NCBI RefSeq assembly: GCF_022690685.1 | Contig: NZ_JALCYY010000003.1 | Location: forward strand, 62,001-126,000 | Source: Anaeromyxobacter terrae | GTDB lineage: Bacteria > Myxococcota > Myxococcia > Myxococcales > Anaeromyxobacteraceae | Length of the DNA: 64,000 nucleotides | Direction: 5' to 3' | Shown here: in pieces, positions 46,601-47,335 of the stretch | Layout: each line of letters opens with the position of its first letter | How positions within the stretch are numbered: the first letter of the stretch is position 1 | Made by a program: the position numbers and the translations under genes | The notes under the pieces: generated by a model | The model's input: the letters and a program-made list of their open reading frames with translations, nothing else | Databases searched by the model: none | What the model was told of the DNA's origin: nothing

Positions 46601-47236
46601 TCACCGCTCTCCCCGGCGCCGCGCGCCCGCGCGCCGCGCCGCCTCCGCCAGCACCTCGTACGGCTGGCACCCCACGACGCGCGTCACGGGCCGAGCGCCC
46701 GGCGCCGCGACGAAGTCGAACGTCGGCACGCCGGTCACGCCCGCCTCTCGGGCCGCGCGCCGCGCCGCGTCCACGCACGCGAGCGCGCCCGCCTCGTCCG
46801 CCGCCGCGAGCGCGGCCGCCGGGTCGAGCCCCACCGCGCGCGCGACGTGCACGAGATCCTCGTCGCGGTCGAGATCACGCCCCTCGCGCCAGTACGCGTC
46901 GAACGCGGCGGCGCGGAAGACCTCGAGCTTCCCGGCCTCGCGCGCGTACTGCGCGGCGGCGAGCGCCCGGCGGGTGCTCGGGAGCCGGTCCGGCGCGCGC
47001 AGGTCGCGGAGGCCGAAGCCCGCCGCGAAGCTCTTCACGTACCCCAGCATCGCGCCGGCGTCCGACAGGTAGGACGCGAGCGGAAGGCCGCCGCGCGGCG
47101 TCCCCGGGTGCAGCTCGTAGCCGACCCAGTCCACCTCGATGTCGTACTCCGCCTGCAGCCTGACCAGGCTGCTCCGCTCCGCGACGAAGCAGAACGGTCA
47201 GACGAAGTCGGAGAAGAGCCGCACGATCGCGCCCAT
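46601..47236 (-). CDS. Probable selenoprotein: DsbA/FrnE-family oxidoreductase with UxxC active site
   Basis: One frame runs from ATG 47236 to the stop at 46601 (211 residues), interrupted only by TGA at 47198-47200 (codon 13). The product reads MGAIVRLFSDFV-U-PFCFVAER, so the TGA falls exactly on the first Cys of the DFVCPxC motif of FrnE-like thioredoxin-fold proteins. The second Cys is Cys16. Downstream sequence is a typical FrnE domain (EVDWVGYELHPGTPRGG, cis-Pro in GVTGVPTFDF). A SECIS-like hairpin follows the UGA. A selenocysteine at the attacking position is known in other thioredoxin-fold selenoproteins. Automatic calls would start at GTG 47134 and miss the active site. A nonsense mutation or sequencing error is the alternative. 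No signal peptide, so cytoplasmic. Confidence 0.8.
47155..47172 (-). promoter_or_regulatory. Candidate bacterial SECIS hairpin
   Basis: On the minus strand, GCAGCCT-GGTC-AGGCTGC forms a perfect 7-bp stem with a GGUC tetraloop. The loop begins 32 nt after the in-frame UGA, within the spacing usual for bacterial SECIS elements (about 16-37 nt), and carries the expected G residues. The E. coli fdhF loop is similarly AGGUCU. An alternative 8-bp stem closer to the UGA (47169-47192, loop UCGCGGAG) competes with it. Confidence 0.55.
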
Positions 47237-47335
47237 GGGTGGGGCGTGTAACGGGGGCGGCCGCTCCGCTCCACTCCCGGCGCGGGTACGGCCAGCGCGG
47301 CGCGCGGTCCCGCGCCGTGGTAGATCCGGCAACCC

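Follow-up and report, generated by a model that had tools for sequence, protein, structure and literature searches.

An in-frame UGA at the active site of an FrnE-like oxidoreductase of Anaeromyxobacter terrae is very probably read as selenocysteine

On the minus strand of the window, the 64,000-nucleotide stretch of DNA from the soil bacterium Anaeromyxobacter terrae analysed here, a frame of 211 codons runs from ATG 47236 to a terminal TGA at 46603-46601 and is broken by one internal stop, a TGA at codon 13 (47198..47200, minus strand) in the context SDFV-U-PFC. The question raised by this locus is whether the internal TGA ends translation, results from an error, or is recoded. A preliminary description had proposed that it occupies the place of the first cysteine in the CPxC motif of a DsbA/FrnE-like protein and that it is translated as selenocysteine (Sec). 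Re-reading of the sequence gave the same frame, broken by this single TGA. Taken together, comparison with homologues, the sequence behind the UGA and the gene content of the genome indicate that codon 13 is almost certainly read as Sec, a confidence that applies to the identity of this residue, and that the product would be a cytosolic Sec-containing thiol-disulfide oxidoreductase of the FrnE type.

Conservation of the interrupted frame and the selenocysteine machinery

With cysteine at codon 13, the 211-residue protein encoded by the FrnE-like gene (46601..47236, minus strand) matched the DSBA family PF01323 with 99 bits (E 3.9e-28; curated cut-off 25.6), and no NCBIfam model scored above its cut-off. 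Among the DSBA-family places of the same genome, an internal stop was found only in this gene. A scan of GC content by codon position, combined with inspection, gave no convincing case of a further TGA-interrupted gene in the window.

Relatives were sought in 84,980 species genomes, and the clade to which the gene belongs comprises 24 distinct loci, including its own and those of eight congeners. TGA stands at exactly codon 13 in 19 of these 24 loci, and TGC in five (L033, L038, L039, L041 and L042). All nine Anaeromyxobacter genomes examined have the TGA; each contains one TGA-bearing DSBA-family gene, which is always the orthologue of the present one, with the same start codon and frame, the more distant congeners being 64-67% identical to our protein. 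The TGA is also found in ten more distant relatives of the clade (50-59% protein identity). With identities falling to about 50%, the TGA forms are spread over Myxococcota, 'Deltaproteobacteria' and one Chloroflexi MAG. The last of these, L028, lies on a contig that bears the label Chloroflexi (MAG SZUA-161); its Sec gene is of Myxococcota type and has an identical SECIS core, which may reflect either horizontal transfer or a binning error. The homologues without Sec have TGC or TGT at this codon, as expected if the TGA sits at the first cysteine of CPxC; those of Bacillota and Herpetosiphon have cysteine there.

A lone in-frame stop near the 5' end resembles a fresh nonsense mutation, and the mechanically derived ORF does begin at GTG 47134, where the preliminary description had expected gene callers to start. 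The TGA could accordingly be a real stop in a pseudogene or a mistaken TGC, with a truncated product initiated at GTG 47134 or no product at all. However, the same TGA recurs in the nine genomes of the genus and in ten other loci of the clade, which come from independent assemblies. Downstream of the UGA, 33 of 55 and 63 of 92 differences from the two nearest congeners affect the third position of a codon, an excess indicating that this part is translated in frame, as coding sequence. Cys16 (47189..47191, minus strand), the second residue of the UxxC motif, is invariant in 83 of 83 homologues, and initiation at GTG 47134 would delete this active site. Signs of gene decay, which would have spoken against the Sec reading, were looked for and none was seen. 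We therefore regard a pseudogene or a sequencing error as refuted, with a residual probability close to nil.

The genome itself (5.65 Mb, 99.98% complete) contains all four genes that the preliminary description had suggested searching for: selA (532 bits), selB (above cut-off, with an intact ORF of 649 residues), selC, the gene for a tRNA-Sec with anticodon UCA (75.4 bits, in agreement with ARAGORN), and selD (above cut-off, 395 bits). The selD frame holds a TGA in the canonical GAG-U-ACK site (L106:1531-1533), and selD is hence itself a selenoprotein gene. Ten UGA genomes from outside the genus were tested for selA and all 10 have it, as does the A. terrae genome, compared to four of nine genomes with a Cys form (Fisher one-sided test calculated by hand, about 0.008). 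Of the clade's five Cys members, three belong to genomes that gave no selA match, some of these being MAGs and possibly incomplete. L038 (genome G018) and L042 (G022) have the Cys form and retain selA; in these two lineages Cys seems to have taken the place of Sec while selA was kept.

The hairpin behind the UGA

A perfect 7-bp hairpin with a GGUC loop had been claimed to follow the UGA at a distance normal for bacterial SECIS (bSECIS) elements. This hairpin, GCAGCCU-GGUC-AGGCUGC (47155..47172, minus strand, read from 47172 to 47155), was confirmed and compared to the published limits, namely an apical loop of 3-9 nt, a stem of 4-16 bp, a G among the first two nucleotides of the loop, a spacing of 16-37 nt between UGA and loop and an MFE <= -7.5 (PMC13188914). 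All of its values fall within these ranges: a loop of 4 nt opening with GG, a stem of 7 bp without mismatch, a loop placed 32 nt after the UGA (the stem begins after 25 nt) and a folding energy of -11.1 kcal/mol, with a z-score of -3.15. An equally good bSECIS-like hairpin follows 26 of the 816 TGA triplets (3.2%) of the window, and given this background the hairpin was dropped as sole evidence of Sec. The combination of hairpin and TGA is nevertheless far above chance because it is conserved across the loci of the clade.

No UGA row of the clade differs in the stretch CTGGTCAGG, and the stem varies hardly at all. Where the encoded amino acid is equal, the same codon is used in 98% of cases over the six codons of the hairpin (22-27), compared to a mean of 52% (sd 9%, maximum 90%) for windows of six codons located after codon 35. 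The arginine codon of the hairpin is AGG in 17 of 17 non-redundant UGA rows, compared to 12 of 304 arginine codons elsewhere in the same genes. The hairpin is missing in the five TGC rows. L038 (TGC) and its sister L036 (TGA), joined with a support of 100/99, show its loss together with that of the TGA. Covariation is weak (a double change at a single pair, a result reached by 66 of 500 shuffles) because the sequence is almost invariant; the conservation is that of the hairpin's sequence, rather than of compensated pairing. An Rfam scan of the region gave no match to a SECIS model, and a sub-threshold match to mir-885 was put down to chance.

On the basis of the sequence and of the machinery present, we propose that during translation SelB carrying Sec-tRNA(UCA) would bind the hairpin 25 nt behind UGA 13, and that this codon would then be read as Sec instead of as a stop. 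Readthrough without selenium, with UGA decoded for instance as tryptophan or by near-cognate suppression, would likewise conserve the frame, but the homologues have cysteine and not tryptophan at this codon, a SECIS-type hairpin is conserved, the full Sec machinery is encoded and selA is present in all the UGA genomes tested. This explanation is in our view highly improbable, if marginally less so than a pseudogene, and insertion of Sec is the reading retained below.

Fold, family and probable activity

The AlphaFold model of the protein (pLDDT 95.8) has as its closest solved structure FrnE of Deinococcus radiodurans (Z 25.2, 1.8 A, 196 residues aligned), followed by SCO1869 of S. coelicolor (Z 23.9) and then by HCCA isomerase and kappa-class GST (Z 20-21). 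Profile searches gave E 1.5e-43 for FrnE and 2.4e-17 for HCCA isomerase. With FrnE closest by both sequence and fold, and with a UPxC motif, the protein belongs to the FrnE-like subfamily. In the model, residue 13 just precedes helix 14-21, and Pro171 (46724..46726, minus strand), which is invariant in the alignment, precedes strand 172-176, a placement found in thioredoxin-fold active sites; Pro171 is expected to be the cis-proline that faces the active site in this fold.

D. radiodurans FrnE (DR_0659; PDB 5cnw, 5coh and 5xwh) has the same fold with CPxC at the same place and is predicted to be cytosolic; no signal peptide is evident in our 211-residue sequence. It differs from our protein by a cysteine in the place of Sec, by an alanine at the position of Cys190, and by a C-terminal CxxxxC that serves for regeneration (PMC8945050). 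The latter motif is not present in our sequence, so that the recycling route must differ; it is optional in the family, being missing in some members such as D. maricopensis FrnE (PMC8945050). FrnE has been described as acting in the cytoplasm as a disulfide reductase/isomerase, and cells that lose it become more sensitive to cadmium and diamide (PMC8945050).

By analogy with FrnE, whose fold our protein is predicted to share, Sec13 would face the TGVP-loop proline from the N-terminus of the first active-site helix, and a Sec13-Cys16 selenenylsulfide would form in the catalytic cycle. The enzyme would most likely act as a disulfide reductase/isomerase, its selenolate attacking substrate disulfides; a cytosolic thiol system would re-reduce it, and Cys190 may help to resolve or recharge the centre. 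We consider this direction of the reaction and this type of substrate, both transposed from FrnE, to be probable. A selenoprotein acting as a DsbA-like oxidase, or in a role similar to that of kappa GST and HCCA isomerase, would fit the rank of the latter two as next structural neighbours. FrnE is however closer both by profile and by structure (Z 25 compared to 21), and the lack of an evident signal peptide and the intact UxxC pair also argue against such roles, which we deem unlikely. The neighbouring genes (DTW, tgt and a chemotaxis receptor) are not conserved beyond the genus, and the neighbourhood was dropped as a hint to the substrate, DTW and tgt being conserved within the genus only.

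A third cysteine, a second Sec clade and the start of the mRNA

The Sec forms are accompanied by a third cysteine, Cys190 (46667..46669, minus strand), in the motif VVGCQPYE. It is present in 57 of 57 Sec forms, which come from two distant clades, compared to 4 of the 20 Cys forms that have a residue at this position, i.e. four of five inside the clade and none of 15 outside. This distribution, which is partly confounded by ancestry, suggests that Cys190 may take part in regeneration.

A second clade is formed by 41 gammaproteobacterial loci with TGA at the same codon and the motif U-P-W-C, their proteins sharing only 34-37% identity with ours. In their hairpin, TCAGTAC-CGTGA-GTATTGA, the loop is placed about 20 nt downstream of the UGA, compared to 32 nt in the A. 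terrae gene. Since the hairpins differ in both sequence and position, the SECIS elements of the two clades are not recognisably the same. In L043, L045-L055 and other gammaproteobacterial loci the hairpin reads TCAGTACCGTGAGTATTGA and lies nearer to the UGA. The differing elements may result either from independent gain or from replacement of the element, the tree joining the two Sec clades with weak support and long branches.

ATG 47236 has no Shine-Dalgarno sequence, and a TTACAC element is found 9 nt upstream, within a possible -10 promoter element TTACACG (47245..47251, minus strand). Of 21 clade loci, some of which are related rows, 15 have a [TG]TA motif at -17..-10, compared to a mean of 1.7 and a maximum of 6 after shuffling, and only four have SD-like motifs. 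The segment 47237-47260 (minus strand) of the window and the same place in L028-L042 and L110-L118 share this -10-like TTA/GTA motif, 10-17 nt upstream of the start codon. A -10-like motif so close to the start codon, together with the scarcity of SD-like motifs, suggests that the mRNA is leaderless, in which case about 40 nt would separate its 5' end from the Sec codon. In the literature searched, no leaderless bacterial selenoprotein mRNA was found.

A wider reading, which we advance tentatively and hold to be possible but doubtful, would combine these features: Sec13, Cys16 and Cys190 might constitute a three-residue redox centre in which Cys190 assumes the regenerating function that the C-terminal CxxxxC has in D. 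radiodurans FrnE; with Cys190 already there, Sec may have been gained on two occasions, in clades with differing SECIS hairpins; and the mRNA would probably be leaderless, with recoding close to its 5' end.

The preliminary description had seen a distinctive selenoenzyme in this protein, a claim that is not supported, as DsbA-like selenoproteins have been described before: with UxxC in COG2761 (the FrnE group) in Sargasso Sea data of 2005 (PMC1088965), in A. dehalogenans in 2006, as one of 11 selenoproteins listed (PMC1794560), and as 'DsbA 1' (pfam01323, UxxC) from GOS in 2008 (PMC2398784). The Sargasso Sea and GOS family shares with our protein PF01323, the UxxC motif, Sec at the first active-site cysteine and a SECIS element directly downstream (PMC1088965, PMC2398784); unlike our gene, its sequences are marine metagenome reads. 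The A. dehalogenans protein (PMC1794560) comes from the same genus. Because each Anaeromyxobacter genome has one TGA-bearing DSBA gene, the gene at 46601-47236 is in all likelihood the orthologue of the one listed, a match made by gene count per genome. What is new here is the presence of Cys190 in all 57 Sec forms, the non-matching SECIS hairpins of the two Sec clades and the signs of a leaderless mRNA.

Reading UGA 13 as Sec corrects the annotation of a gene that is truncated or broken when ORFs are called mechanically. The family offers a clean comparative case of a cytosolic FrnE-type selenoenzyme across Myxococcota, in which natural Sec/Cys pairs, such as the sisters L036 and L038, make the benefit of Sec over Cys testable in an enzyme with the DsbA fold.
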